Below, in pieces: positions 6,901 to 58,827 of a DNA stretch of 64,000 nucleotides (position 1 is its first letter; every line of letters begins with the position of its first letter). Made by a program: the position numbers and the translations under genes. The stretch is from an uncultured Saprospiraceae bacterium (lineage in GTDB: Bacteria > Bacteroidota > Bacteroidia > Chitinophagales > Saprospiraceae), in NCBI GenBank assembly GCA_938045585.1, contig CALIAU010000022.1, positions 186,001 through 250,000 of the forward strand, given 5' to 3'. Under the pieces are notes generated by a model, which ran no database searches, was not told the origin of the DNA, and saw only the letters and a list, made by a program, of their open reading frames with translations.

Positions 6901-7806
6901 GTGAATCAAGATCAGAATATAGAGCTGTTTTTAAATTTCATTCGTTTTGAAAAGCGTTATTCAGAGCATACAGCACTGTCTTATGAAAACGATTTGAGTC
7001 AATTTGCTGCTTTTATGCAGTTCCAGTTTGAACAAGAAAGCCTAACTGCTACCAAACATCTCCATGTCCGATCATGGATAGTTTCATTAATGGAGGCTGA
7101 GATATCAGCAAAGTCAATTAATCGGAAAATATCTACACTGAGGTCCTTTTTCAATTTTTTACGAAAAAAGGAGCGCATCGAGGTTTCACCCATGCTCAAA
7201 ATCATTGCGCCAAAAGTAGGTAAACGCCTCCCTAAGCATCTTACTGAAGAGAATATGACAGATCTGAAGGACGAACTTGACGTAGAACCGAGCTTCTCTT
7301 CATCAAGAAATAGATTGATTATAGACCTTTTTTACAACACGGGCATTCGTAGATCCGAACTCATACAGCTGACAGAGAAAAACACAGATACCAGAAATCA
7401 CCTAATTCGCGTATTAGGAAAGGGGAATAAAGAACGTCAAATTCCTATTCCTACTAGCCTTAGTGACCAAATTGAACGATATAGGGCCTTGAAAGCTGCA
7501 GAATTCTCAGATCTTGAAACAGATAGATTATTACTCACGGATAAGGGAAAGGCACTTTACCCACGCTTTGTCTATAATACTGTCAAGAGATACATAGCTA
7601 AGGTAAGCACCATAGAACAAAAGAGTCCCCACGTCCTGCGACATACCTTTGCAACGCATCTATTGAATAATGGGGCAGAATTGAATGCCATCAAAGAACT
7701 ATTAGGACACGCAAATCTATCTGCAACACAAATTTATACCCATAATTCCATAAGCCGATTAAAAGACATTTACAAAAAGGCCCACCCAAGCTCAAAAAGC
7801 CAATAA
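6901..7806 (+). CDS. xerC: Tyrosine recombinase of the XerC/XerD type
   Basis: This 301-residue protein has the normal Xer length. The N-terminal SAM-like core-binding domain covers residues 1-100. The catalytic domain shows every expected residue: Arg150 in TGIRRSEL, Lys174 in GKGNKERQ, His244 and Arg247 in HVLRHTFATH, His270 in LLGHANLS, and the nucleophile Tyr279 in QIYTH. Xer proteins resolve chromosome dimers at dif before division. The start is GTG at 6901; the next Met (residue 39) would cut into the core-binding domain. In many Bacteroidota a Xer-type gene lies just before this tRNA-tuf block, so the position is typical. I usually expect raiA/hpf between the two, and it is absent here. 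Whether this is XerC or XerD cannot be settled by eye. Confidence 0.9.
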   Translation: MNQDQNIELFLNFIRFEKRYSEHTALSYENDLSQFAAFMQFQFEQESLTATKHLHVRSWIVSLMEAEISAKSINRKISTLRSFFNFLRKKERIEVSPMLKIIAPKVGKRLPKHLTEENMTDLKDELDVEPSFSSSRNRLIIDLFYNTGIRRSELIQLTEKNTDTRNHLIRVLGKGNKERQIPIPTSLSDQIERYRALKAAEFSDLETDRLLLTDKGKALYPRFVYNTVKRYIAKVSTIEQKSPHVLRHTFATHLLNNGAELNAIKELLGHANLSATQIYTHNSISRLKDIYKKAHPSSKSQ

Positions 7807-8255: not shown

Positions 8256-8327
8256 GCCAATGTAGCTCAGGGGTAGAGCACCTCCATGGTAAGGAGGGGG
8301 TCGGGGGTTCAATTCCCTTCATTGGCT
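8256..8327 (+). tRNA. tRNA-Thr (anticodon GGT)
   Basis: A 72-base cloverleaf with acceptor GCCAATG/CATTGGC, anticodon stem CCTCC/GGAGG with loop ATGGTAA (GGT), T-arm around GGTTCAATTCC and discriminator T. Its 3' part is copied about 110 bases downstream (see the fragment at 8386-8439). Confidence 0.97.
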
Positions 8328-8385
8328 CAAAGGAATGCACAAAGGTGCATGGAAGAAATTGAAAGAAGAGTTAAGTTGCCCGACA

Positions 8386-8439
8386 GTCGGGGCCTGCCTG
8401 CTTACGCACGTAGGCAGGGTTCAATTCCCTTCATTGGCT
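8386..8439 (+). pseudogene. 3' fragment of tRNA-Thr(GGT) split by a 26-nt palindrome
   Basis: Bases 8386-8392 (GTCGGGG) and 8419-8439 together reproduce the T-arm and acceptor 3' side of the tRNA-Thr ending at 8327. Between them, exactly at 8393-8418, sits a 26-nt near-palindrome beginning CCTGCCTGC and ending GTAGGCAGG. Removing those 26 bases restores the parent sequence with no gain or loss. Bases after the fragment (AAGGATGTACAAAGGTGCATC, 8443 on) also copy the parent's downstream flank (AAGGAATGCACAAAGGTGCATG). So tRNA end plus flank was tandemly duplicated. The fragment lacks D and anticodon arms and cannot be a working tRNA. Confidence 0.88.
8393..8418. repeat. 26-nt palindrome inserted in the tRNA fragment
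   Basis: The terminal arms CCTGCCT/AGGCAGG are perfect. The element differs at 3 of 26 positions from the perfect palindromes at 29518-29543, 57921-57946 and 58535-58560, so it belongs to the same family, here without the longer flanking element. Confidence 0.85.
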
Positions 8440-8529
8440 CAACTAAGGATGTACAAAGGTGCATCGTTAATAAATAGACTTTTATCGAATTACATTATAA
8501 TATTATTAATTGGCTTAAATTTTTTATAG

Positions 8530-9726
8530 ATGGCAAAGGAAACCTTTAACAGGAACAAACCACACGTAAATATCGGAACAATTGGACACGTTGATCATGG
8601 TAAAACCACATTAACCGCTGCCATCACGTATGTACTATCAAAAGATGGACTTGCAGAATCACAAGGATATGACGCGATTGATGCAGCTCCAGAAGAAAAA
8701 GAAAGAGGTATTACTATTAATACTGCACACGTTGAATACGAAACTGCTAACCGTCATTACGCACACGTTGACTGTCCTGGTCACGCGGATTACGTAAAGA
8801 ACATGGTTACGGGTGCTGCTCAGATGGATGGAGCTATACTTGTTGTTGCGGCAACAGATGGTCCTATGCCTCAGACGAGAGAGCACATCTTACTTGCTAA
8901 GCAGGTAGGTGTTCCAAAAATCGTTGTTTTTATGAATAAAGTGGATCTAGTAGATGATCCTGAAATGCTTGAACTTGTAGAGATTGAAGTAAGAGAATTA
9001 TTAAGCAACTACGATTTTGATGGAGATAATTCATCCGTAATTGCTGGTTCAGCACTTAAAGCATTAGAAGATGATGCAGAAGGTGTAAAGCAAATCCAAG
9101 CGCTTATGGCTGCAGTTGACGCAGAAATTCCTGAGCCAGTGAGAGATGTAGACAAGCCTTTCCTTATGCCTATTGAGGATGTATTCTCAATTACAGGTAG
9201 AGGAACAGTTGCAACAGGTAGAATTGAAAGAGGTGTTATTAACACATCCGATCCAGTTGAGATTGTAGGTATGCAAAAAGATGGTGAAAAGCCACTTACT
9301 TCTGTAGTAACAGGGGTAGAGATGTTTAGAAAAATATTAGAAAGAGGAGAAGCAGGTGATAACGCAGGTATACTTTTGAGAGGTATTGAAAAAGAAGCTA
9401 TCAAAAGAGGAATGGTTATCGTTAAGCCTGGTTCAGTAACACCACACACACATTTTAAATGTGAGGTGTACGTTCTTGGAAAAGACGAGGGTGGAAGACA
9501 CACTCCTTTTTTCAATGGTTATAGACCTCAGTTCTACTTTAGAACAACGGATGTAACTGGAGATTGTAAATTACCAGATGGTGTAGAAATGGTTATGCCA
9601 GGTGATAACGTTACACTTGAAGTGAAACTTATCAACGCAATTGCAATGGAAAAAGGATTAAGATTTGCAATTAGAGAAGGTGGTAGAACAGTAGGTGCAG
9701 GACAGGTAGTAGAGATTCTAGCGTAG
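8530..9726 (+). CDS. tuf: Elongation factor Tu
   Basis: This 398-residue protein has the normal length for EF-Tu. It brings aminoacyl-tRNA to the ribosome as a GTP complex. The G1 loop GHVDHGKT (about residues 19-26), switch region [14 protein letters not shown]3 [13 protein letters not shown]4 NKVDLVDD and G5 GSALKALE are all present. Domains 2 and 3 follow ([30 protein letters not shown]) and the protein ends in [12 protein letters not shown]. The gene lies behind four tRNAs, the same gene order as the Escherichia coli thrU-tyrU-glyT-thrT-tufB operon, and is probably transcribed with them. A terminator-like hairpin follows. Only one tuf copy is in the window. Confidence 0.99.
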
Positions 9727-29384: not shown

Positions 29385-29441
29385 CGATATTTTATGAGAG
29401 CAATAAGTATTACTAGACGGCAATAGCATGGATAAAGATTT

Positions 29442-29553
29442 GGGCGTGCCTCCTTTTCTAGAAAAGGAGTCGTGTCGTCCGCAGCCAGGTCCTTCGGACG
29501 CCTTCGGCCTGCTACCACCTGCCTGCGTGCGCACGCAGGCAGGCCACTCACGC
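29442..29553 (+). repeat. GGGCGTG...CTCACGC structured repeat element, copy 1
   Basis: This 112-bp element runs from GGGCGTG to CTCACGC. It contains the hairpin CCTTTT/AAAAGG, a GTCGTCCGCAGC block, the GGTCC-TTCG-GGAC type hairpin, and the 26-nt perfect palindrome with arms CCTGCCTGCGTGC (29518-29543). Two further copies lie in reverse orientation at 57911-58055 and 58525-58634. A separate 8-bp hairpin (GAAATCC/GGATTTC) follows at 29555. There is no coding capacity. It is a REP/MITE-like element by structure, with mobility inferred. Confidence 0.8.
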
Positions 29554-39249: not shown

Positions 39250-39472
39250 ATTTAGCCTAGATTTTTAGTTCTTAGCTCCAAATCTGCATTGGTTTCGCTT
39301 AGCCATCTTTAGTATGGTAAATTCCTTGTTTAACCATATTTTAGCTATATTGTTCCTACAATAAGTCCTGTTTTATACAGTGATTTATTCTCCCTACAGG
39401 CGGCCCACCATTTACGAATACGTAACTCACTCGTTGAGAGTGTATTATAATTATATTAATAGGAACTGTAAT
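39250..39472. other. Intergenic, 223 bases, no gene seen
   Basis: AT-rich spacer ahead of the giant gene. It holds an imperfect hairpin (TATGGTAAA/TTTAACCATA, near 39314-39339) but no clear promoter match or RNA motif. It also contains an in-frame GTG at 39380 that I do not accept as the start of the next gene. Confidence 0.5.
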
Positions 39473-42400
39473 ATGAATAAACGTTTACCCTTAATAATCA
39501 GTGCATTATTTGTGCTCATGAGCTCATTTGTCATTGGACAATCAGATAATTGCGATGCTGCTTCTATGATGCTAACCCCTGGTGTGTTAACCACTGGCGA
39601 TAATACCCTTGGAACTGCAGATGAAGACTATAGCTCAGAATTTGTGTGTACTAGTGGTGATTTTGAAGCTCAAGTATGGTATCAGTATACAGCTAGTAGC
39701 TTTTCAGCTGAATTGACCTTTATTGCAACAGCAATTACAGATGCTTCCATTTTTGTAGTAGAAGGCTGTGGTCCATGTGCTGGACCTGGACATATTGTAT
39801 TTTATACCTGTGATGTCGCTAATGGTGCAACAGAGATGGCGGGTCTTTGTACTGAACCTGGAACAACTTATTGGATAGGGATTTCATCATTTAGCGGAGA
39901 TGCAGGACTCTTTGATATTGAGATTGATGAATCAACGAATCTAGATGCTTCCAATTCAACTTGTGGAGCTGCAATGGCTATTTCGGACGGAATTACAAAT
40001 GTGACAAACTTTTGTACTACGCAGAACTATTTGTTTTTTGAATATACAGTTCAAACAGGACCATCTATTACGGTTTCAACGTCTAATAATTCACCAGTAA
40101 TACCAGTCTGTAGTGGTTCAAGTATTCATACTATATTACCAGATTGCTCTGATCCTGAGGCTACAATTCCAACAACGATTCCAGTATCTGAATGTTTGGC
40201 AGTCGGTCAAACAATCATAATTCGAGTAGAAACAGCACAAGCACACGAAATAGAAATAGAAATTGTAGATCCAGACCCATTGGGTAACCCATCCGAACCA
40301 AATGACATATGTACAGATGCCTTTGATATGTATCCTGGAAGTCCACTATTATGCTCAGCAAATGCAGGACTCTCTGGAAATGGAGCGGCTTGCCCTGATA
40401 CTGAAGGCGCTGGATGTAATGATACTGACCCTGGAATATGGGGTTTTTTCACGGTAGACCCTACAGTGCCTTTCTTCAATGTCACGGGATCAGGTTTTCA
40501 GCTTTTTGAAGGACCTGACTGTAATAATTTGACATCACTGATTTGTGATGTGGCAACGTCAGGAATTGTACCAGATTACAATACAACCTATTATGTTTTG
40601 ATAACAGGTGATGGTACTAGTACTTTTAATGTTGCAGGTGCTACAAACGCACTTGGGATACCAGATCCTACTAATGACGATTGTGCTTCAGCAGATGCAT
40701 TATCATTGGGTTTAAATAGTGGACTAACAAATTTATGTTCATCCACTGATATTAATTTAGGAACCTGCGGTGCTACCCAATCTGAAGCAACAGTATGGTA
40801 TGAGTATACACCCTCACAAGCGGTTACTTTTGTAGAGATTACATTAGCTGCTGCTACAGTTACATCACCAGGTTTTGCAATCTATGATGCTTGTGGTGGA
40901 GCCTTACTAGACGAATTATGTTCAGAAGGAACTATTACGCTAGAATGTAGCATTGAAAATCAGTTTTGGATTCAAGTGGGTAGTGCTACTATTAATGGGG
41001 GAGATTTTGATCTTACAATTACAGAAGGGAATCCGGTAAATGTAAATGACCTATGTACAACAGCTGCAGCCGATCCAGAAAATACCTTAGCCGATTGTAC
41101 ACCTGCTACGATTTCAGGCGATAATACAGATAGCTGTCCAGAATCTTTTGGCCTGGGTGGATGTAATATAGATACAGAACCTACGGTTTGGGAAGAATTG
41201 ACTCTTCCTGCAGGAACCGTATCACTAGAAATAACAAACATATCCGCTGGCTTTAGCGTGACTATATGGGATGGCTGTGGAGGTTCTGCATTTGGCCCCT
41301 CTTGTTTAACTGCGGATGCCTTTGTGAATATTACACCAGGTCTAACTACTGTTTTTGTATCAATCAATGGTCCTACGGAGGGACCCTTCTCTTTTGATGT
41401 ATTAGCAGTTGTGCCGCCAGCCAATGATGCCTGTGCGGATGCAGAAATGCTAGGATCAGGTACCAGTGTAACATTGACAAATGCCTGTGCAACAGCAGAT
41501 GTAGCTCTAGGTTGTGCTGCAACACAGGATGAGGCTACGGTATGGTATAGTTATACAATAGCAAGTCCCATAGATGAAATAACAATTACTTTAGCTGGAA
41601 CAGGTACTTCCATTTTAAATCCTGCTTTCCAAGTATTAGATGGAAATGCAGGTTGTAATGGGACATTTATTCCGGGAATAACGCCTGCTTGTTCTGGGGG
41701 GACCATAACTATTCCTTGTCCACCTGTGGGTGATCTATTAATAGAAGTAGGTTCTGCCTTTGATGATGCAGGAGAATTCCAAATAACAATAACAGAAGGA
41801 ACAGCAACGCCTCCCAATGATCTGTGTATGAATGCTGCAACAGATCCAGAAAATACCTTAACAGCCTGTACAGAATCTATGATAACAGGGGATAACAATA
41901 ATAGTTGTCCAGAAGCATTCTCATTAGCTGGCTGTAACATAGATATAGAATCTACAGTATGGGAAGAGCTTACTCTACCAGCTGGTACTGTGGCGCTAAA
42001 TATTTCGGGAATTACACCTAATTTTAATGTAACTGTATGGAGTGATTGTACAACACCGCTAGGACCCTCTTGTTTGACAGCAGATGATATGATTGCTATT
42101 GCAGCTGGAACAACGTCCGTGCTTGTTTCTGTTAGCTCTGATCCTACATTGGAAGGCGCGTACGCGTTTACTGTCTTACCAGTTGTGCCTCCAGTAAATG
42201 ATGAATGTGCAGATGCAATTGGTATAAATAGTGGAGCAAATACAGGTCTAACAAATGAATGTGCAACAGCAGATGTACTTTTTAATACCTGTGGAGGTGG
42301 CCAAGAAGAAGCGACTGTATGGTACAGCTATACAATTGCAAATCAAATTGATGAAATAACAATAAACTTAGCAGGATCTGGTGCAAATATAACTGCTCCT

Positions 42401-45400
42401 GCCTTTATGGTGCTTGATGGAACTGGCGGCTGTAGTGGAGTCTTTTTAGATGAGGCCTGCGCAGAAGGAGATCTTATTATTGAGTGTCCTCCAGTTGGTG
42501 ACATTTTTATAATGGTAGGTTCTACCTTTGATAATGCAGGAGAGTTTGATATTACGATTACGGAAGGTAATCCTAGTCCTACGAACGATCTATGTGATAT
42601 GGCTGCAGTAGAACCAGCCTTAGTTGCCTGTGTAGCACAAGAAATATCAGGTACGAACGAATTTGCCTGTCCAGAAGATTTTACATTGGCAGGTTGTAAT
42701 ATAGATGTTGACCCTACGGTTTGGCATGAAATAACAGTGCCTGCGGGAACAACAGCCTTAGAAATTGAAGTTACCTCAGGTCCTATCTCTGTAACGATAT
42801 GGGAATCTCCTTGTCCTCCAGGTGGTACTGCAAATGGACCTGTGTGTATTAATGGAATGGATGTAGTAAATGTGCCAGGAGCAGGTACCTACTTTATTTC
42901 GGTAAGTACCATTGATGGAAATGAAGGGGCCTATACCTTTGATATAACCGCTATTGTACCTCCTGCAAATGATGATTGTGCAATGGCAGAACTTATTACT
43001 GCAGGTGCTACCAGTGGATCAAATATTTGTTCCACTCCTGATATAGCTCCAGGCTGTACAGCCTCTACTGATATTATTAATACAGTATGGTATGAGTATG
43101 TCGTGCCAGCTGGAGTAAAATCTGTAACTATCAGTATCGCTGGAACAGGTGGTATTCCAATATCAGGAGTGCATGCGGCGGCAGTAGATGGATGTCCACC
43201 AGGATCCAGTTTGATCGAACCAGGAAGTGAGACCTGTGCAGGGGAAGATATAGTACTCAGTTGTCCAGACCCGGGTGTATCCGTATTTATCCTTGTAGGT
43301 AGTACCAGTGATAATGAAGGAGATTTTACGATTACAATAACAGAAGATAATCCTACGTGTACATATGGAAATGATGAATGTGCAGATGCAGAACCCTTAC
43401 CAAATGATCCAATAACAAATATGGGAGAGGAATGTACATCTGGATGTAATGAATTAGCCTGTCCAGATCCTGAGATTGATGGTGTATGCGGAGTAACTAC
43501 TAATAATGTTGTTTGGTTTGAGGTAACAACAGATGCCTTTGATCCTTCTATTGAAACATTTATAATCGCAGAGATTTCTAATGAGGTTGATTTTAATCCA
43601 GTGGTTGGGATCTTTACTGGTTCATGTCCTCCCGTTAGTGGTCTTACATCCATAGGTTGTAATCCTGGAGCGAACGTAACTGTATCCAATGCTGCCAATG
43701 CAGCGAACCATCCCATGCCAAATACGACCTATCTGATTGCGGTTGCAAATTCAGATGATACACAATCGGGAGGTACCTTTGATCTATGTGTGGAAGTGGT
43801 ACAGGGATGTGCAAATGATGACTGTGTAAGTGCTCTCACCATTACGGATGGAGTAACTCAAGTAACAACTACAAATGGTTGTACGGAAGATATAGGTGTA
43901 CAAGCATGTGGTGGACCCGGAGGAGCTTATGAGGCTTCTGCTTGGTATAATTATACGGTCCCTGCGGGTGTAACTGCGATCTTAGTGGAAGCAACAGGTG
44001 CAACTGGAGCTCTAGTTTTTGATGCAATTGTAGATATTGACTGTAATGATCCTGTTCCTTTTGGTTCTCCTTCAGAGAATGTAGACTGTAATTTCAGTGA
44101 AACACTATTGACCTGTGTGCAAGAAGGAGAGGTGTACACATTTTTTATAGGCTCAGAAATTTCAGGTGTTAATTTTGATTTAACCATAACAGGTTTGCCA
44201 CCAGATGACCCACAAAATCCAAGTCCAGATAATGATCTTTGTACGGATCCAGAAGTAATTCCTATAACAGATGATTGTGCCTTTGTAACAGTAACTGTAA
44301 ATAATGAAAATGCTTGTGAAGAAACCTTCTCTGTAACTCCATGCGTGACTGGTCTTTTTAATGAAAACCCTACTGTTTGGTTTGAAGTAACTTTACCTGC
44401 AGATGCAACAGGACTAGATTTTGATAACATTAATAACGGAACCTATCTCTCTGTGTTTGACGATGTGTGTCCTATAACAGGGGGAACACCCTCTCTAGGT
44501 TGTATGGATCAATCCACTGCATCCTCAATAGTTGGTTTAACAGGTGGTAATACCTATCTAATTGCTGTGGCACATCCGGTAGAGTCTTCTTCTCATAGTT
44601 TTGATATCTTGGCAATTACGCCACCAGAAAATGATGGTCCATGTCCAACAGATCCTGACTTTTCTCCTGCAGATATAACAGGTGGATCGTACTCAGGAAC
44701 AACCTGTTGTGCACTAGGTTTTAATGATCTAGATGCAGCAGGAAATCCTTTAGATTTAGAAAATATAGCCTGTACAGGTACCCTGACACAGGATAATGTA
44801 GTATGGTTTATCTATCAGTGGATAGATGATGGTTCAGATGGTATTGAAATAAATTTTAACCCAACAGGAATTTCTGGAAGTGCTTCATTAGAAGTGTATA
44901 CTGCAACTATGAATGCAGGCTGTGCTCCTCCTATCCCTGCAACTGCAGCAGATGTAGTTGGATTCTCCTGTGATGCTGTAAATGATGATCCTATACGCAT
45001 AGGTTGTCCAGATCCAGATGTATATTATTATATTAAGTTATCTACTGCAGATGAAACTTGTGGGGAATACACTATTTCTGTTGATCCAGCCACTTCACAG
45101 TGTTCTGAGCTAGCAGATGAATGTGTCGATGCACCTATGTTAGTAACACAAACACCAAATGCTTGTGCAGATGGAGAAATTCCACTCTCAGTAGATGGTT
45201 GTTTAGATTTAGCCTGTCCAGAAGATGTGTTCACTGATTGTGGACAAGATCAGGGACCTACAGTGTGGTTTCAAATTACTATTGATGACACGGATGCGAA
45301 TGGTTTATATACGCAGGTAGATGCGCCTGGTTTTGACGCGGTTTGGGCAGTATATGAAGGAACTTCTTGTGATGACATGGTTCTTGTAGGTGATTTAGAT

Positions 45401-48400
45401 GAAGATAATCCAGGGAGTATATTTCCATGCAGTTTTTCTGATGGAGATCCAGGAAATTTATTTACAGTTCCTATTGGTACAGATCCGGCTACAGGAGATG
45501 ATTTTACCTATTGGGTTTCTGTAACGGCAGTTGGTCCAGTAAGTGATCCTAACTTTGAGTTAAGTTATGGTGCAACCCTAGGTTGTATCGCTTGTAGTGG
45601 AAACACCGCACAAGATTGCGACAATGGTACCTTTGAAGCCTTTGTGGATGGAGAGCTGTCGGAAGGCCCTTTCTGCGCAGGTGCTGAGGTAGAAATATGT
45701 TTGTCTTTTAATTATAATACAACAGGTACTGGTAATGATTGGTTACACGGAATAATTCCAACCTTTGGTGCTGGATGGGATGTAGAAGAAATAGATTTCC
45801 CATCCATTGATTTAGGAAATCCAAATTGGGTTTGGGCAGATGCAGACGGTGGTTGTGCGCCTTTTTTGAATGGCTATAGTCTACCTAACGCATGTACCTT
45901 TACAAATGCTGAAGGTTTATTGCAAATATGTAATACCTCTTGTAATCCTTCCTGTGATTGTGAGCTTGGGGCGCCATTACCAGATGGCTCACCTCTCCCA
46001 AGTGGATGGTTCTGGAGTTCTCCTGGTGGTTCGCCTACCTGTGCAGGAGCATGTACTCCTTCCGATGATTGGGGAGTACCAGCAGGAACTAACGTAGATG
46101 TTGATATCTGTATGACACTTATTGTTAAGTCCTTTGATGATCCAGATGAATGCGAAGACAATAAAGATTTAAAAATATTTTTCCAGACAACTTCAGATGC
46201 AATTTCTGGGTGTTGGGTAGATTCTTCTCCTTGTATAATTGACCCATCCTTTGAGAGTCCATCTTGGGAGGTAGACTGTGATACGTCACCACCTGCAGTT
46301 GCTGATATTGTTCCAATTTGTAGTGGGACAATGGCAATGACGCAGGTATCCATTGAAGGCGGATTAAATGGAGAAATAGAAATAGAAATAGACCCAGATA
46401 CCTCTCCAGATATTCTTGGTCAAACAGAAGATGTATTTACAGGTGGTGTAGGAACGATTATGGACGAACTGATAAACTGTGGTACTACAGTAGATACTGC
46501 TCGGTACATCGCTTTTGCAATTGTGGATGGATTCCAGTGTCCTGGTGTTCCAGTAGAAGTAAAAATTCCTGTATTTCCTAAAATTGTAATAGACCCACAA
46601 CCAAATCCGTATATCGTTTGTCTACCACATACCATTGAAAACCTACCAGCAAATGTATCTGGAGGTACTGGCAGCTATGATGTTATAAATTGGTTCTGGG
46701 GAGATGAGTTGACAGGAACACTGATAGGGAGTGGACCTGTGCTTACAAGTTATCCGTTGAGCATGGATGGTATTATTACTATCCAGGTAATAGATTCGGG
46801 AGGTTGTACAGAAACACAGCAACTCGTTGTTGATATTTTTGAAAAGCTAGAACCAGAGATAAATATTGATGCTACGGAGGTATGTAAAGATATTTCATTC
46901 TTGGGAGCAGATGCCTTTGTTTCTATAGGGACAGTAGATGATTGGTTCTGGTATTCAGAAGATGCAGATGGAAATCCTGTAGATATATTTACCGGCGGGA
47001 ATACTGGCTCCAATGTAAATATTGATCCTTCAGACCCTAGTGTTGAACCAGGAAAATATACTATTTTTGCAGAAGCATCGAATGATGTCGGCTGTGTAGG
47101 TATAGATTCAGTTTGTCTTACCATTTATCCATTACCAATTGGAGAGATTGTCCAACAGCCTAGTACAGACTGTTCTTCTGAAGTTGAGCTTTGTGTAGAA
47201 TTTTATGATGAGAATGGTGCAGATATTTATGGAAATGGACCAGATGATAATGGAAACGGTATTCCAGATCTTTTCGAAGATGATAATGGTGATCCAGACT
47301 TTACAGTAACCTGGTTTGCAAGCTTCATCCCAGGTGGTTCTACCACAAATGAACTCTGTTTCCTTACCTCGACACAAAGTTTCTATGATGTCGAAATAGA
47401 ATCCGCTAATGGTTGTATTGGAATATTTGGAATAAGTGAAATCGTACTGCCTATGTCCACTCCTCCGACAATAGAACCAGATACTATCTGTCTAGGGGAA
47501 ATGACAACTCTAAGCGTGATGCCGCAAGACTATGATACCTATGAGTGGGAAGATGCAGATGGCAATCCGATAGGAGGGGGTTCAGCAGGGCCAATGATAA
47601 ATGTTGCCCCAGTCGTAAGTTCTACCTATTTCTTGACAGTAACAGATGCGAACGAATGTACGGGTGAAACCTCCGTCACTATAGAAGTGAACCCATTACC
47701 GGATCCACAGTTTTCTGGAAACCTTTCCATATGTGCTGGACAAGAAACTGAAATAACTGCCTTAGGAGATCCTGCCTTATTTGACTTTAATTGGTTGGAT
47801 GGTTCAGGTGGTTCTATTGGCGTAGATTCCTTTGTAGTCATTTCAACTACAGGGACCTACACGTTAGAGTTAACGAATGAATTTGGCTGTATTAAGGATA
47901 CCATGTTTACTGTAATAACAGCTGCAGAACTAGATATTAATATTTCAGGATCTGATATATGCGATGATGATGGATGCACCACACTAAATGGAGGTGCAGG
48001 TTTTGATATGTATACGTGGACAGATATGGATGGAAATGAAATAGTTTCAGGACCAACAGAACAGACACTAGAAGTATGTGATCCAGGTGATTATATTTTG
48101 ATTGCTGCACAGGGCGTTTGTTCAGGTGTAGATACTATTACTATCAGTCAAATGGATTCTCCAATAATTGATATTGCTGATGGAGAAGCCTGTAATATTA
48201 CTTCAGGTGGATCTCTATGGTTTGTCAATTTTGACGATCTAGTACTTTCAAGTGCTGGAGGGACTTGGTCCTCACTGACAGATCCATCGATAGTGCTTTC
48301 ACCTCTTGATAGTGTGTCTTTTGCTGGACTGCCACAGGGAGACTATGAGTTTATTTATACAACAAACACCGCAATGGCGCCATGTGCTGATGTATCAGAT

Positions 48401-51400
48401 ACAATAACAATAGTCGTGGGTCCATGTGATTGTCCAAATCCGAATGTAAACAATCCAGTCGATCTGTGTAATGCAGATAACAACTACGATCTGAATACAC
48501 TGATAGGACCAAATACAGATGCAGGGCAGTGGGTCTTCTTAAATGGGCCAGAGGCTACAGTGTTAGATGGAGATAGTATGTTTGTATATAACGGCGTAAC
48601 ACCTGGTATGTATGAATTTGCTTACGAATTAGTACCAGTGCCAATAGGAACATGTACGGAACTAGCAGATACAATTGTTGTAACCGTGGTAGAACCACCA
48701 GTTGCAGAAGTTGAAATGTTTGCCTGTGTGTGTGAAACACAGTCAACAGCGGGTTGTAATAATGGAAGTACCATGCTAAATCTAGACGATTTTGTATTAA
48801 GTGGAACAGGGCAGTGGATAGATCCAGGTATTGCAGGATTAGCATGGACACCACCAATGCTAGACTTTTCAGGCTTACCAACGGCACCAGTTGTACTTAC
48901 CTTCCAAACTACAGATGCAGTTGCACCTTGTAATAATGTTGAATATACATTGACAGTAGATGTTACAGATTGTAACTGTCCAAATGTTTCGGTAGGAACG
49001 GTAGACGACCAATGTAATGATGATGCTGTTATTGATCTTTCATTGATTGAAGATGTAAATATTGCGCCAGGATCATGGGTAGAAGCAGCTTCGAATCCTA
49101 GTACCGGTGTATTAGCTGGATCTACTGCAACGTTAACAGGTCAACCTACAGGATTGTATGTGTTTACGTATGTTTTAGATACACCAGTTGCAGGTTGTGA
49201 TGATGAAAGTACGCCAGTCATAATTAGTCTAAGTGAACCACCTGTAGTAACAGTCATGAATGCATTCGTTTGTAATGTAGCTATGGGTATGGATACCACG
49301 AATATAGATTTAAATAGCCTTGTTTCTGACCCAACAATTGGAGTTTGGACTGATAATACTGGAGCTCCAGTATTAGATACCAATATTGATTTTAACGGTC
49401 AGGCAGTGGGTACTATAATAACATATACATTTACTACAAATACAGCTGTGGCACCATGTGCTGATCAGGCATACCCAGTCGATATTGAAGTAGTTGATTG
49501 TGCTTGCCCTCCATTAAGTTTTGCCAATCCACCTCTGCTCTGTTCAGAACCAGATGGCTCGGTAGATTTGGATTTACTAATTCTTGCACCGACACCAGCA
49601 GGAACATGGAACCTTGTGTCAAGTCCAACTGGAAGTACAGCTAACTTGAGTGGTTCTGTACTGAATGCAACAGGATCTGTAGCAGGGATTTATACTGTAG
49701 AGTTCCAGCCTGATGGCGAACTGCCTATTTGTGCAGAGACTTTAGATGTGACGGTATCTGTGATGGCAAATGCCACACTAGAACCGAGTTTAATAATTTG
49801 TACAACTAACTCCAATGGAGAAGATACAGATTATGATCTGAATGACGCGATCACAGGAGGTGATACAGGAGGGGTATGGACTGATAGTGATGGCAATGTG
49901 ATTTCAGATACTAATATTGAATTTTTAGGAGAAGATGATGGTGCATATACCTATACGTACACAGTTGAATCAGATGATCCGTGTGATCCATTTATTGGAT
50001 CAGTTACCATAAACGCAGGGAATTGTGCTTGTCCAGTTGTATTTGATTTGGAGACCTTCTGTAGCACAGGTGGAACTATTGAACTCTTTGATATTTTCAA
50101 TATCAGTTTCCCTGGTATGTGGCTATTTGCTGACGGGACTCCAGTTCCAAACGCAATTATTGACTATACAGGCTTCCCTGATGGCATCTCTACAGTATTC
50201 TTTGAGATGGATGATCCAGGAACTACCTGTTTAACACAGTATCCAGTCAACTTTAATATCGTGAGTCCAGAAGATTTAGGAGAACCTGCTGAGCCACTTA
50301 GAATTTGTGAAGGGGAAGATGTACTTGTTAATTTACTTGATCTTTTACCAAATGCTGCGACAGGAGGAATGTGGATAGAAACATCTGTAGATGGAAGTAC
50401 ACCGGGAGCGTTCGATGCCAATGCAGGAACCTTCAGTACTGGTAATGAAAGTGCAGCAAGTTATATGTTCCAATACGAGCTACAGTCTGCGCAACCTTGT
50501 CCTTCTGTGGCAGAGACGGTACAGGTAATTATCGAAGGCTTACCAGCTGTTGAAGCAGGGGAGACGCAGACTCTAACCTGTGATAATAATACAGCTGCAC
50601 TCGGAAATGATGCGATCACTTCACAAGGAATTAACTTTGTTTACCAATGGACAGAAGCAGGTGGTGCAACGATTCCTAATGATACGGAGTCAAGTATAGT
50701 AGTGAACGAGCCCGGCGTATATAACTTAGTAGTAACCGATATCAATACAGGATGTACTATAGAAGATTTTGTTACAGTGAATGTAGATGGAAATATCCCT
50801 ACAGTAGCAGCTAGTTTTACAGAAATAAGCTGCTTTGGTGCAGGAGACGGTAGCATTGAGGTTGCTGTAACAGGTGGCGTTGCACCGATACAATACTCTA
50901 TAGATGGAGGAAGCAGTTATAGTAATAATAATATTTTCGAAAATCTTGGACCAGGTAATTTCGCAATTTCTGTTCTTGATGATAATGGCTGTGAAACAGG
51001 CTTAAATATTGAAATCACACAGCCTGACCGTGTGACTGTGGATCTAGGAAGTGATATTACTTTAAATGAAGAAACAACAGATACGCTATTGACATTTACA
51101 AGTAATTTCCCGAATGATCAAATTGCAAATGTAGTTTGGACGGACGAAGATGGTCTTGTCCTCTGTGAAGGCACCTATGATGAGTGTAGAGAATGGATGG
51201 TTGGTATAGCAGAGGCAACTGTTTACTGCGTAGAGATTACGACTGTAAATGGCTGTGTAGCTACAGATTGTATCCAAATACGAGCAATTATTGTAGAGGA
51301 TTGTTATGTACCAAATATCTTTAGTCCAAATAATGATGGGCAGAATGATAGTTTCTTCATGCAGTGCGATGAGTTTGCAACTAGTGTAAATAAATTCTTC

Positions 51401-51595
51401 GTATTTGATAGATGGGGAGAACTGGTATATGGTATAGAAGGTATACTGCCGAATGATCCAAGTGTAGGCTGGGATGGTACCTTAAATGACCAAGATGTGG
51501 AGCAGGGTGTCTACGCGTATTACATAGAAGTAGAATTTAATAACGACCCAGATAATGTCGAAATCTTTGCTGGAGACATTACTGTAGTACGTTAA
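39473..51595 (+). CDS. Giant (about 4040 aa) Cys-rich repeat protein with type B T9SS sorting domain
   Basis: The signal peptide MNKRLPLIISALFVLMSSFVIGQ fixes the start at 39473; an upstream GTG adds 31 residues that spoil it. Residues about 24-2040 hold some 14 Cys-rich beta domains of 125-160 residues, each opening N-D-x-C and containing TVWxExT/VWYxYT. From about 400 to 1290 two types alternate: A (DPENTL...SCPEdF.l.GCNID...TVWEELTLPAGT) and B (ADA...NACATAD...ATVWYSYT). A unique region (about 2040-2260) follows, then Ig-like units, four units starting C-x-CP (near 2985-3560), a SprB-like repeat (SCFGAGDGSIEVAVTGGVAP, about 3785) and a type B sorting domain (CYVPNIFSPNNDGQNDSFF ... VFDRWGELVY ... 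GWDGT). It is a surface adhesin or gliding-type protein by architecture; ligand unknown. A GNRA-loop hairpin follows. Confidence 0.9.
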   Translation: MNKRLPLIISALFVLMSSFVIGQSDNCDAASMMLTPGVLTTGDNTLGTADEDYSSEFVCTSGDFEAQVWYQYTASSFSAELTFIATAITDASIFVVEGCGPCAGPGHIVFYTCDVANGATEMAGLCTEPGTTYWIGISSFSGDAGLFDIEIDESTNLDASNSTCGAAMAISDGITNVTNFCTTQNYLFFEYTVQTGPSITVSTSNNSPVIPVCSGSSIHTILPDCSDPEATIPTTIPVSECLAVGQTIIIRVETAQAHEIEIEIVDPDPLGNPSEPNDICTDAFDMYPGSPLLCSANAGLSGNGAACPDTEGAGCNDTDPGIWGFFTVDPTVPFFNVTGSGFQLFEGPDCNNLTSLICDVATSGIVPDYNTTYYVLITGDGTSTFNVAGATNALGIPDPTNDDCASADALSLGLNSGLTNLCSSTDINLGTCGATQSEATVWYEYTPSQAVTFVEITLAAATVTSPGFAIYDACGGALLDELCSEGTITLECSIENQFWIQVGSATINGGDFDLTITEGNPVNVNDLCTTAAADPENTLADCTPATISGDNTDSCPESFGLGGCNIDTEPTVWEELTLPAGTVSLEITNISAGFSVTIWDGCGGSAFGPSCLTADAFVNITPGLTTVFVSINGPTEGPFSFDVLAVVPPANDACADAEMLGSGTSVTLTNACATADVALGCAATQDEATVWYSYTIASPIDEITITLAGTGTSILNPAFQVLDGNAGCNGTFIPGITPACSGGTITIPCPPVGDLLIEVGSAFDDAGEFQITITEGTATPPNDLCMNAATDPENTLTACTESMITGDNNNSCPEAFSLAGCNIDIESTVWEELTLPAGTVALNISGITPNFNVTVWSDCTTPLGPSCLTADDMIAIAAGTTSVLVSVSSDPTLEGAYAFTVLPVVPPVNDECADAIGINSGANTGLTNECATADVLFNTCGGGQEEATVWYSYTIANQIDEITINLAGSGANITAPAFMVLDGTGGCSGVFLDEACAEGDLIIECPPVGDIFIMVGSTFDNAGEFDITITEGNPSPTNDLCDMAAVEPALVACVAQEISGTNEFACPEDFTLAGCNIDVDPTVWHEITVPAGTTALEIEVTSGPISVTIWESPCPPGGTANGPVCINGMDVVNVPGAGTYFISVSTIDGNEGAYTFDITAIVPPANDDCAMAELITAGATSGSNICSTPDIAPGCTASTDIINTVWYEYVVPAGVKSVTISIAGTGGIPISGVHAAAVDGCPPGSSLIEPGSETCAGEDIVLSCPDPGVSVFILVGSTSDNEGDFTITITEDNPTCTYGNDECADAEPLPNDPITNMGEECTSGCNELACPDPEIDGVCGVTTNNVVWFEVTTDAFDPSIETFIIAEISNEVDFNPVVGIFTGSCPPVSGLTSIGCNPGANVTVSNAANAANHPMPNTTYLIAVANSDDTQSGGTFDLCVEVVQGCANDDCVSALTITDGVTQVTTTNGCTEDIGVQACGGPGGAYEASAWYNYTVPAGVTAILVEATGATGALVFDAIVDIDCNDPVPFGSPSENVDCNFSETLLTCVQEGEVYTFFIGSEISGVNFDLTITGLPPDDPQNPSPDNDLCTDPEVIPITDDCAFVTVTVNNENACEETFSVTPCVTGLFNENPTVWFEVTLPADATGLDFDNINNGTYLSVFDDVCPITGGTPSLGCMDQSTASSIVGLTGGNTYLIAVAHPVESSSHSFDILAITPPENDGPCPTDPDFSPADITGGSYSGTTCCALGFNDLDAAGNPLDLENIACTGTLTQDNVVWFIYQWIDDGSDGIEINFNPTGISGSASLEVYTATMNAGCAPPIPATAADVVGFSCDAVNDDPIRIGCPDPDVYYYIKLSTADETCGEYTISVDPATSQCSELADECVDAPMLVTQTPNACADGEIPLSVDGCLDLACPEDVFTDCGQDQGPTVWFQITIDDTDANGLYTQVDAPGFDAVWAVYEGTSCDDMVLVGDLDEDNPGSIFPCSFSDGDPGNLFTVPIGTDPATGDDFTYWVSVTAVGPVSDPNFELSYGATLGCIACSGNTAQDCDNGTFEAFVDGELSEGPFCAGAEVEICLSFNYNTTGTGNDWLHGIIPTFGAGWDVEEIDFPSIDLGNPNWVWADADGGCAPFLNGYSLPNACTFTNAEGLLQICNTSCNPSCDCELGAPLPDGSPLPSGWFWSSPGGSPTCAGACTPSDDWGVPAGTNVDVDICMTLIVKSFDDPDECEDNKDLKIFFQTTSDAISGCWVDSSPCIIDPSFESPSWEVDCDTSPPAVADIVPICSGTMAMTQVSIEGGLNGEIEIEIDPDTSPDILGQTEDVFTGGVGTIMDELINCGTTVDTARYIAFAIVDGFQCPGVPVEVKIPVFPKIVIDPQPNPYIVCLPHTIENLPANVSGGTGSYDVINWFWGDELTGTLIGSGPVLTSYPLSMDGIITIQVIDSGGCTETQQLVVDIFEKLEPEINIDATEVCKDISFLGADAFVSIGTVDDWFWYSEDADGNPVDIFTGGNTGSNVNIDPSDPSVEPGKYTIFAEASNDVGCVGIDSVCLTIYPLPIGEIVQQPSTDCSSEVELCVEFYDENGADIYGNGPDDNGNGIPDLFEDDNGDPDFTVTWFASFIPGGSTTNELCFLTSTQSFYDVEIESANGCIGIFGISEIVLPMSTPPTIEPDTICLGEMTTLSVMPQDYDTYEWEDADGNPIGGGSAGPMINVAPVVSSTYFLTVTDANECTGETSVTIEVNPLPDPQFSGNLSICAGQETEITALGDPALFDFNWLDGSGGSIGVDSFVVISTTGTYTLELTNEFGCIKDTMFTVITAAELDINISGSDICDDDGCTTLNGGAGFDMYTWTDMDGNEIVSGPTEQTLEVCDPGDYILIAAQGVCSGVDTITISQMDSPIIDIADGEACNITSGGSLWFVNFDDLVLSSAGGTWSSLTDPSIVLSPLDSVSFAGLPQGDYEFIYTTNTAMAPCADVSDTITIVVGPCDCPNPNVNNPVDLCNADNNYDLNTLIGPNTDAGQWVFLNGPEATVLDGDSMFVYNGVTPGMYEFAYELVPVPIGTCTELADTIVVTVVEPPVAEVEMFACVCETQSTAGCNNGSTMLNLDDFVLSGTGQWIDPGIAGLAWTPPMLDFSGLPTAPVVLTFQTTDAVAPCNNVEYTLTVDVTDCNCPNVSVGTVDDQCNDDAVIDLSLIEDVNIAPGSWVEAASNPSTGVLAGSTATLTGQPTGLYVFTYVLDTPVAGCDDESTPVIISLSEPPVVTVMNAFVCNVAMGMDTTNIDLNSLVSDPTIGVWTDNTGAPVLDTNIDFNGQAVGTIITYTFTTNTAVAPCADQAYPVDIEVVDCACPPLSFANPPLLCSEPDGSVDLDLLILAPTPAGTWNLVSSPTGSTANLSGSVLNATGSVAGIYTVEFQPDGELPICAETLDVTVSVMANATLEPSLIICTTNSNGEDTDYDLNDAITGGDTGGVWTDSDGNVISDTNIEFLGEDDGAYTYTYTVESDDPCDPFIGSVTINAGNCACPVVFDLETFCSTGGTIELFDIFNISFPGMWLFADGTPVPNAIIDYTGFPDGISTVFFEMDDPGTTCLTQYPVNFNIVSPEDLGEPAEPLRICEGEDVLVNLLDLLPNAATGGMWIETSVDGSTPGAFDANAGTFSTGNESAASYMFQYELQSAQPCPSVAETVQVIIEGLPAVEAGETQTLTCDNNTAALGNDAITSQGINFVYQWTEAGGATIPNDTESSIVVNEPGVYNLVVTDINTGCTIEDFVTVNVDGNIPTVAASFTEISCFGAGDGSIEVAVTGGVAPIQYSIDGGSSYSNNNIFENLGPGNFAISVLDDNGCETGLNIEITQPDRVTVDLGSDITLNEETTDTLLTFTSNFPNDQIANVVWTDEDGLVLCEGTYDECREWMVGIAEATVYCVEITTVNGCVATDCIQIRAIIVEDCYVPNIFSPNNDGQNDSFFMQCDEFATSVNKFFVFDRWGELVYGIEGILPNDPSVGWDGTLNDQDVEQGVYAYYIEVEFNNDPDNVEIFAGDITVVR

Positions 51596-57745: not shown

Positions 57746-57995
57746 AGAAAGTGTGAGCCTATACCCGTTCTGCGTAGTTTCCAAACTACGCATCCATATC
57801 CATACCCTTTACTTAATACATGCGAATCCATATCTTTTATTTAATCCGTTAGCTGGATAGCTCCTTGTAGATAGGAATCTACAAGCCACGTAGCCTCAGT
57901 AAACTCACCCGCGTGAGCGGCCTGCCTGCGTGCGCACGCAGGCAGGTGGTAGCAGGCCGTAGGCGTCCGAAGGACCAAGCTGCGGACGACGCGAC
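57703..57995. repeat. Segmental duplication, copy 1
   Basis: This block is repeated at 58317-58609 with an offset of 614-615 bases and few differences. It contains the last array unit, a TGCGTAGTTT/AAACTACGCA hairpin (57771-57792), a CTTGTAGAT/ATCTACAAG hairpin (57864-57885) and the start of the GGGCGTG-type element. No gene is present. Confidence 0.85.
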
Positions 57996-58055
57996 CCATC
58001 AGATAGTCTGGGACTATCTGATGTCCTGAGCGGAGCGAAGGATCTGGTCACGCCC
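57911..58055 (-). repeat. GGGCGTG...CTCACGC structured repeat element, copy 2
   Basis: This is a 145-bp copy on the minus strand. It shares the end motifs, the 26-nt palindrome (57921-57946) and the GGTCC-TTCG-GGAC block with copy 1. The short AT-rich hairpin of the other copies is replaced by a longer insert with the 11-bp hairpin CATCAGATAGT/ACTATCTGATG (57997-58022) and CGCTCCG/CGGAGCG. The ends are conserved and the middle is swapped. Confidence 0.8.
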
Positions 58056-58059
58056 AAAT

Positions 58060-58350
58060 TGTGTGAGTGAAGTTTAATATTGATATGTAGGTACAAGCTA
58101 CAAATAGCGAGTGCGTGTAAAGTTTTAGCGAAGTTTAATATGGATTTGTAGGTGCAACCTACAAATAGCGTATGTGTAGAAAGTGTTAGCGAAGTTTAAT
58201 ATGGATTTGTAGGTGCAATCTACAAATAGCGTATGTGTAGAAAGTTTGAGCGAAGTTTAATATGGATTTGTAGGTGCAACCTACAAATAACGTATGTGTA
58301 GAAAGTTTGAGCGAAGTTTAATATGGATTTGTAGGTGCAAGCTACAAATA
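58060..58350. repeat. Second tandem array of five GTAG-core hairpins (cluster 2)
   Basis: The same ATTTGTAG/CTACAAAT hairpins occur at about 58083, 58144, 58204, 58264 and 58325, with regular 60-base spacing and conserved spacers. It follows element copy 2 directly and leads into the second copy of the duplicated block. Confidence 0.85.
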
Positions 58351-58609
58351 GCGAAGGTGTAGAAAGTGTGAGCCTATACCCGTTCTGCGTAGTTTCCAAA
58401 CTACGCATCTATATCCATACCCTTTACTAATACATACGAATCCATATCTTTTATTTAATCCATTAGCTGAATAGCTCCTTGTAGATAGGAATCTACAAGC
58501 CACTTAGCCTCAGTAAACTCACCCGCGTGAGCGGCCTGCCTGCGTGCGCACGCAGGCAGGCGGTAGCAGGCCGTAGGCGTCCGAAGGACCGTGCTGCGGA
58601 CGACGCGAC
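58317..58609. repeat. Segmental duplication, copy 2
   Basis: This is the second copy of the block at 57703-57995. It holds the TGCGTAGTTT/AAACTACGCA hairpin at 58386-58407 and the CTTGTAGAT/ATCTACAAG hairpin at 58478-58499. A few substitutions and one-base indels show that the duplication is not brand new. Confidence 0.85.
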
Positions 58610-58634
58610 TCCTTTTTTAAAAGGAGGCACGCCC
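58525..58634 (-). repeat. GGGCGTG...CTCACGC structured repeat element, copy 3
   Basis: This 110-bp copy on the minus strand has the 26-nt palindrome at 58535-58560. Its variable hairpin is CTCCTTTT/AAAAGGAG, as in copy 1, unlike copy 2. The same end motifs are present. Confidence 0.8.
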
Positions 58635-58827
58635 AATTCCTTCTACAAACTGTCAATTTGGAGCCATATTTTACCCAATTTCCTGCCTCTGACTAGTATA
58701 ATATTGCCTATTTTCACACTTACCGATTTATATTCGGCATTTAACTAAAAACTATGGCATTTAGGCAGCGGATAAGTATGACAGAGGGTCTAAAAGTCAT
58801 CAAGAACTTTATATAATAGAGATCCTT
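58635..58827. other. Intergenic leader of the last gene, no gene seen
   Basis: AT-rich, 193 bases. A TAATATTG at 58699-58706 is close to the -7 consensus, but no matching -33 box was found. No hairpin family member or RNA motif is visible here. Confidence 0.45.

Follow-up and report, generated by a model that had tools for sequence, protein, structure and literature searches.

In the 64-kb window (the whole stretch of DNA analysed here, from a source genome of 4.31 Mb in 44 contigs), the 3' end of an intact tRNA-Thr(GGT) gene is present a second time shortly downstream, and a 26-nt palindrome stands inside the T-stem of this copy. Sequence comparisons suggest that a partial tandem duplication probably came first and that a very small REP-like palindrome then inserted into the copied tRNA end. 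The palindrome family is amplified in the source genome compared to its relatives, and its members are present or absent as exact 26-nt pieces at many places.

The segment GTCGGGGGTTCAATTCCCTTCATTGGCTCAA (8300-8330), of which 29 nt lie inside the tRNA-Thr gene and 2 nt past its end, is repeated as 8386-8392 plus 8419-8442, with CCTGCCTGCTTACGCACGTAGGCAGG at 8393-8418 as its sole interruption. After removal of the palindrome, 31 of 31 bases are identical to the tRNA-Thr 3' part, and the coordinates and the copy identity given in a first-pass annotation of this DNA were correct (Table 1). The duplication takes in approximately 20 nt of flank (15 of 16 bases identical between 8335-8350 and 8449-8464), with an offset of 86-88 nt when the palindrome is disregarded and a start-to-start distance of 112 bp between the two 3' copies. 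These flank repeats agree with the earlier proposal that a tandem duplication occurred before, or together with, the arrival of the palindrome. The locus belongs to a tRNA cluster, Thr-Tyr-Gly-Thr, ahead of tuf and tRNA-Trp, and Rfam at gathering scores identified nothing in the window besides five tRNAs. An inverted repeat missing from the first-pass annotation, CCCGAC-A-GTCGGG at 8379-8391, is formed by the left part of the T-arm copy; the spacer's CCCGAC, mirroring the GTCGGG of the T-stem, is perhaps a trace of fold-back copying. A 275-nt stretch, which includes the tRNA itself, folds better than its own shuffles (z -3.2), and the hairpin would fall in the spacer transcript ahead of tuf. 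Elsewhere, the window contains an ORF of 4071 aa (39380-51595).

Table 1. Features of the tRNA-Thr(GGT) locus and palindromes of the larger repeats, in window positions.
Feature	Position	Strand	Basis
Intact tRNA-Thr(GGT), source of the duplicated 3' part	8256-8328	+	ARAGORN; Rfam RF00005, 65 bits
31-nt segment present twice: T-arm, acceptor strand and 2 nt beyond	8300-8330	+	Sequence
First flank repeat; predicted hairpin ATGCAC-AAAG-GTGCAT	8335-8350	+	94% identical to 8449-8464
35-nt spacer between the copies; CCCGAC (8379-8384) complementary to GTCGGG (8386-8391)	8351-8385	+	Sequence
Left part of the T-arm copy, GTCGGGG	8386-8392	+	Sequence
26-nt palindrome CCTGCCTGCTTACGCACGTAGGCAGG within the T-stem of the copy	8393-8418	+	Sequence
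Right part of the tRNA 3' copy	8419-8442	+	Sequence
Second flank repeat ATGTACAAAGGTGCAT	8449-8464	+	Sequence
tuf (EF-Tu), next gene	8530-9726	+	Pfam
Palindrome CCTGCCTGCGTGCGCACGCAGGCAGG in larger repeat (core 29488-29513, minus)	29518-29543		Sequence
Palindrome CCTGCCTGCGTGCGCACGCAGGCAGG in larger repeat (core 57951-57976, plus)	57921-57946		Sequence
Palindrome CCTGCCTGCGTGCGCACGCAGGCAGG in larger repeat (core 58565-58590, plus)	58535-58560		Sequence

A match was obtained in 55 of the 61 family genomes searched, the source genome included. Thirty loci, among them the window's own, were taken for reading from tRNA-Thr to tuf, and 24 of them were parsed by script (six unparsed). All 23 parsed relatives share the tRNA-Thr to tuf order and carry one tRNA 3' end, with a gap of 36-150 nt and no duplication. 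In a sister genome of the same genus (G001) the intact tRNA-Thr is followed by CACCAGGATGTACAAA, the contig ending 16 nt past the single tRNA copy; this flank has GGATGTACAAA in common with the second flank repeat and is closer to the flank of the second copy (GGATGTACAAA) than to that of the first (GGAATGCACAAA). The single 3' end in the 23 relatives, together with the G001 flank, indicates that the extra tRNA copy is derived and local. The spacer sequence TTGCCCGACAGTCGGGG was found in five of 249 loci, all five covering this place. An uninterrupted (empty) form of the duplicated T-arm was not seen in a near relative, the G001 contig stopping at the point given above. A search for displaced 27-nt tRNA tails (at most two mismatches), which misses the interrupted Thr copy, found none for 12 tRNA genes in 847 kb, and a tRNA-Leu (L223) and a tRNA-Asn (L225) outside the cluster have palindromes within 400 nt and no displaced tail.

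The palindrome family has the consensus CCTGCC...GGCAGG. A pattern with perfect 9-nt arms (CCTGCCTGC-N2-14-GCAGGCAGG) gave 58 matches per strand in the source genome, at least two places being double-counted by overlap, and its reversed control gave none; palindrome matches in the window averaged 0.00 over 100 shuffles. With the 26-nt pattern we observed 82 forward and 82 reverse matches in the source genome, 4 and 3 in G001, and 9 and 13 in a further genome, G036 (mostly with another centre). The pattern was absent from 91 of the 100 family genomes sampled (91 of 99 relatives), and more than ten matches were present in the source genome and G036 only. The window variant also forms a head-to-tail array (C20:77460-77657, L052; spacing 34 and 49 bp), in which the stretch 77460-77619 contains the exact window 26-mer four times, plus one copy with a base change. 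In a collection of named genomes, from which the source genome's own records may be excluded, the exact 26-mer was found only in the Saprospiraceae MAG OFTM376, where it occurs in 11 contigs with similar flanks, largely inside one other repeat. The palindromes lie mostly outside genes: 13 of 89 are inside ORFs of at least 150 aa, though such ORFs cover 83% of that DNA. One palindrome, C1:74228, occupies the same place in the sister genome.

For excision tests, palindromes were collected from 847 kb of the source genome plus small loci and from 1.19 Mb of G001, yielding 144 pattern matches; 125 with at least 12 of 14 end bases were kept (115 from the source genome, 10 from G001) and 19 were dropped. 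The 40 nt on each side of a palindrome were joined and searched in the same DNA, with an ungapped match across the junction of at least 13 of 16 bases required. Exact excision restored an empty-copy match at 48 of 125 sites, compared to 9/125, 5/124, 4/125 and 5/125 for control excisions moved by -66, +66, -45 and +45 nt, respectively; for 77 of 125 sites no exact empty copy was present in the DNA searched. When contexts with at most 5 of 16 mismatches were merged, the 48 sites clustered into 19 contexts, which were not retained as independent, since among the clusters one repeat recurs in related form or shifted by one base. Under a stricter rule, applied to 99 palindromes of 26 nt, the exact ends gave an empty match for 24, fourteen one-sided length changes of 1-4 nt gave 0-1 each, and four two-sided changes gave 4 (34 nt), 0, 0 and 0. 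A 26-nt window shifted by 1-2 nt still gave 12-15 matches, because most palindromes have end repeats of 1-2 nt. The empty copies are mostly paralogous repeats; whole-repeat copying contributes to the counts, and the sites are not independent. The palindrome behaves as the independent unit that the first-pass annotation had suggested, and this behaviour may extend to another organism: in OFTM376 a 19-nt member, CCTGCCTGCCTTTGGCAGG (L248 1544-1562), is present or absent exactly in comparison with L245, aligned over 75 columns. In G001, both flanks were found for 19 sites. One of these has the palindrome in both genomes; at 17 the gap contains no true palindrome (three of them fall in a single gap whose hit, inside the larger element described below, is spurious, and one more has a weak spurious hit); and the last, L222:164, lies in alignable DNA and is a false palindrome, of which the two-mismatch pattern admits a few. 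Since flank identity to G001 is approximately 68-83%, junctions are unreadable there, and this comparison shows absence, not exact insertion.

Three other palindromes in the window (29518, 57921 and 58535) differ at 3 positions from the one in the T-arm, and each lies at one end of a larger repeat, as described in the first reading of the sequence. In the source genome, 10 of 16 copies of this larger repeat carry the palindrome, between GTGAGYGG and TGGTAGC or close variants. Exactly the palindrome is missing from the other 6 of 16 copies and from all four copies in G001, and the larger elements are therefore not palindrome-ended by nature. A divergent branch has no palindrome in two source-genome copies and one G001 copy. 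A further divergent copy, L216:11982, was too distant in sequence for the larger-repeat search to detect; it has a palindrome variant in the same position whereas its branch mates have none, so that the polarity of gain and loss in that branch is not clean. Absence is probably, though not certainly, the ancestral state of the larger repeat. This repeat also has a second slot, GACGACACGACC...GGCACGCCC (window 57976-58060, 58590-58635 and 29440-29488), occupied by a different hairpin in many copies, which suggests modular or hairpin-swapping repeats. Between two copies of the larger element, the window contains tandem repeats with TTTGTAGGTGCAA-CTACAAATAGCG hairpins (58080-58380).

The junctions show an excess of flank bases that duplicate a palindrome terminus (GG in the left flank, CC in the right). 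Such end repeats are at least 1 nt long in 73 of 99 palindromes (background 39%) and at least 2 nt in 42 of 99 (11% in background flanks; the sites are not independent), and 26 of 99 have none. A target-site duplication above 2 nt, a feature of MITEs of DDE transposons, was not observed: end repeats of 3 nt occur in 2 of 99 and none is longer. Among the 24 strict sites, 16 have an end repeat of at least 2 nt, 6 have one of 1 nt and 2 have none (the junctions of AATCAAGA with TTCTCAGA and of GAGAAGGA with TAGGAATG), and an end repeat is missing at 6 of the 48 exact sites. The T-arm junction reads GGGG/CC...GG/G, with slashes at the palindrome's ends. Since both the palindrome and its left flank end in GG, a 2-nt GG duplication is here indistinguishable from none. 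The absence of a target-site duplication, claimed in the first-pass annotation, accordingly holds only to the extent that any duplication is at most 2 nt; the flat claim was dropped, as most junctions have end repeats of 1-2 nt. At many sites, the T-arm site included, a candidate unit of 26 nt without duplication cannot be told apart from one of 24 nt with a 2-nt duplication. The end-repeat enrichment may reflect a GG/CC target, a 2-nt duplication, or deletion between short repeats. Checked for the conserved 4-5 nt flank at one end that marks IS200/IS605-type insertions, the flanks showed only a weak bias, with a purine at -1 in 80%, G at -2 in 49% and T at -5 in 45% of 97 non-independent sites, each counted in both orientations.

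The following course of events is proposed for the tRNA locus. The 3' part of tRNA-Thr(GGT), with about 20 nt of flank, would have been duplicated shortly downstream, with the gene left intact and a 3' fragment placed before tuf; a copy of the 26-nt palindrome would then have entered the T-stem of this fragment. The unit would be the single palindrome; its joining to the target would be exact, mostly outside genes, frequently beside GG (on the opposite side, CC) and with a duplication of 2 nt at most. It may move as a single-stranded hairpin on which a trans-acting enzyme, of the HUH/Y1 type or another, works. We infer this order of duplication and insertion, the hairpin route, and a gain of the palindrome, not its loss, at the majority of sites.

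The enriched end repeats take some weight from insertion and lend it to the opposite direction, in which an ancestral palindrome was precisely lost as replication skipped an extruded hairpin via the 1-2 nt base repeats, recombination between repeats spreading both forms. Hairpin skipping would remove exactly the length of the palindrome, and the excess of 1-2 nt end repeats is what such skipping uses. We consider precise loss unlikely, however, since a functional tRNA has no palindrome, making gain the sensible direction at the tRNA-Thr locus, and since the sister copies of the larger element uniformly lack the palindrome, high copy number is confined to two of the sampled genomes, and some exact sites have no end repeat to skip by.

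The left side of the T-arm copy comprises 7 nt alone (GTCGGGG), and it could belong to the local CCCGAC-A-GTCGGG inverted repeat, which does exist at this place; recombination or template switching would then have linked the palindrome and a tRNA 3' fragment, with no insertion into a T-arm. Short as the match is, GTCGGG is scarce (64 occurrences in 847 kb of the genome, both strands counted), and only 1 of 115 palindromes has it within 12 nt, so that a chance match on the left is unlikely. Furthermore, CCCGAC-0to4-GTCGGG has one match per strand in the 847 kb, namely this locus, which argues against a pre-existing module and makes the CCCGAC arm simpler to explain as a fold-back copy of the T-stem. 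Joining without T-arm insertion is thus improbable. Duplication of a tRNA 3' end is also the usual trace of tRNA-targeting integrases, and a tyrosine recombinase gene is located at 6901-7806, but it is very improbable that a now degenerate integrative element once entered tRNA-Thr and left behind the copy, as its displaced attachment site, and the palindrome, as a residue of its own DNA, given that the duplication extends past the tRNA into the flank, that the copies are so close together, with no ORF of at least 100 aa between the tRNA 3' ends, and that the single-copy G001 contig also begins in recombinase-like frame remnants just before the tRNA cluster (read by eye). The recombinase itself would fit a housekeeping Xer-type gene. 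In E. coli, the tandem repeats of tyrT (rtT RNA) are downstream repeats that start inside the 3' end of tRNA-Tyr; they differ from the tRNA-Thr copy in unit length, copy number and palindrome.

Insertion into a duplicated tRNA end, the reading we prefer, does not make the T-arm a special target; the first-pass annotation had named a T-arm as the target. Among the 125 genus palindromes and 13 OFTM376 pattern matches, the tRNA-Thr copy is the only one with the motif TTC[AG]ANYCC within 25 nt, and the T-arm appears to be one target among many, not a preferred one, singular in that its ancestral sequence is known.

As candidate mobilisers, the source genome encodes two genes matching Y1_Tnp (C23 and C13). 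Matches to the C23 gene, which is RAYT-like and encodes 175 aa, were obtained in 5 of 99 other family genomes, G001 (82% complete) not among them. The gene is flanked on both sides by CCTGCC palindromes, approximately 0.4 and 1 kb off; at C23-type loci a CAAGGGG-type palindrome or a close variant is nearer, no more than approximately 250 nt from the stretch matching the gene in L191, L193, L194, L196 and L197 and at approximately 1.5 kb in L192, and in L195 none was found near the gene. The C23 gene was rejected as mobiliser, since its nearest hairpin is of the CAAGGGG type and a CCTGCC palindrome match was missing from all five other genomes found to have a C23-type gene. The C13 gene was likewise rejected, lying between two identical 41-nt perfect palindromes of its own (L024 1364-1404, 2112-2152). 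Co-occurrence of Y1_Tnp is uninformative, with Y1_Tnp present in 70 of 100 genomes and a palindrome match in 9, and a plasmid search with the RAYT protein gave no match. These results point to a mobiliser other than these two Y1 genes, possibly a trans-acting HUH enzyme. The 20-22 nt palindrome CAAGGGG...CCCCTTG, or a close variant of it, found near the RAYT-like Y1 family in several genera (L191 1208-1227 and 1458-1477; L192, L193, L194, L196, L197) is probably that family's own REP.

REP and REPIN sequences, associated with RAYT (TnpA_REP), are short GC-rich palindromes whose movement is attributed to processing of single-stranded DNA (PMC3116915, PMC3733652, PMC6006769). Like them, the palindrome studied here is high-copy, mostly outside genes, and found singly, paired and arrayed. 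The REPIN work treats doublets as the moving unit and did not find singlet excision (PMC3116915), whereas here a single 26-nt palindrome appears to be the unit; pairs and arrays exist, yet exact presence and absence of single palindromes is seen. Tagged REPs share with it size (20-40 bp), high copy number and a mostly extragenic location. The tags GTAG and CGTC, reported to define most REPs (PMC3733652), do not mark its hairpin foot: in a span of 6 nt to each side, 12 of 115 palindromes have GTAG and 1 of 115 has CGTC. No cognate RAYT gene flanked by the same palindrome was identified, both Y1 genes having other hairpins nearest. For these two reasons the palindrome is not filed under tagged REPs, though it probably works like REP or SDR-type repeats. 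The SDRs, very small cyanobacterial repeats of about 20 bp (Elhai et al. 2008), are noted as possibly mobile (PMC2884548); they are alike in small size and differ in phylum and sequence. Rickettsia palindromic elements (RPE) are described as palindromes inserted within genes (PMC3733652) and are reported in-frame in ORFs, in contrast to the mostly intergenic 26-nt palindrome. Mitochondrial DNA has hairpin elements and GC clusters (PMC4478555, PMC2800124), which resemble the palindrome in being small, in forming hairpins and in spreading through a genome. Among the literature matches listed, the text available mentioned neither this palindrome in Saprospiraceae nor palindromes in T-arm copies.

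The findings touch on the question of how single REP-type palindromes spread, the REPIN work regarding doublets as the moving form (PMC3116915). With dozens of sites at which presence and absence of the 26 nt is near base-pair-precise, unit length, a GG/CC target rule and direction become testable. For the tRNA fragment, the ancestral sequence is known from an intact gene approximately 100 bp away, and the uninterrupted form would be GTCGGGGGTTCAATTCCC. It can be suggested, tentatively and with more doubt than confidence, that a single 26-nt palindrome suffices as a mobile unit, copied precisely next to GG or CC with a duplication of at most 2 nt, without a guide tetranucleotide or a transposase gene of its own, by an enzyme or a replication-linked hairpin process. 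If this is true, the palindrome would rank with the smallest known mobile pieces of DNA, and the tRNA T-arm copy would be its clearest case with a known direction, that of gain.
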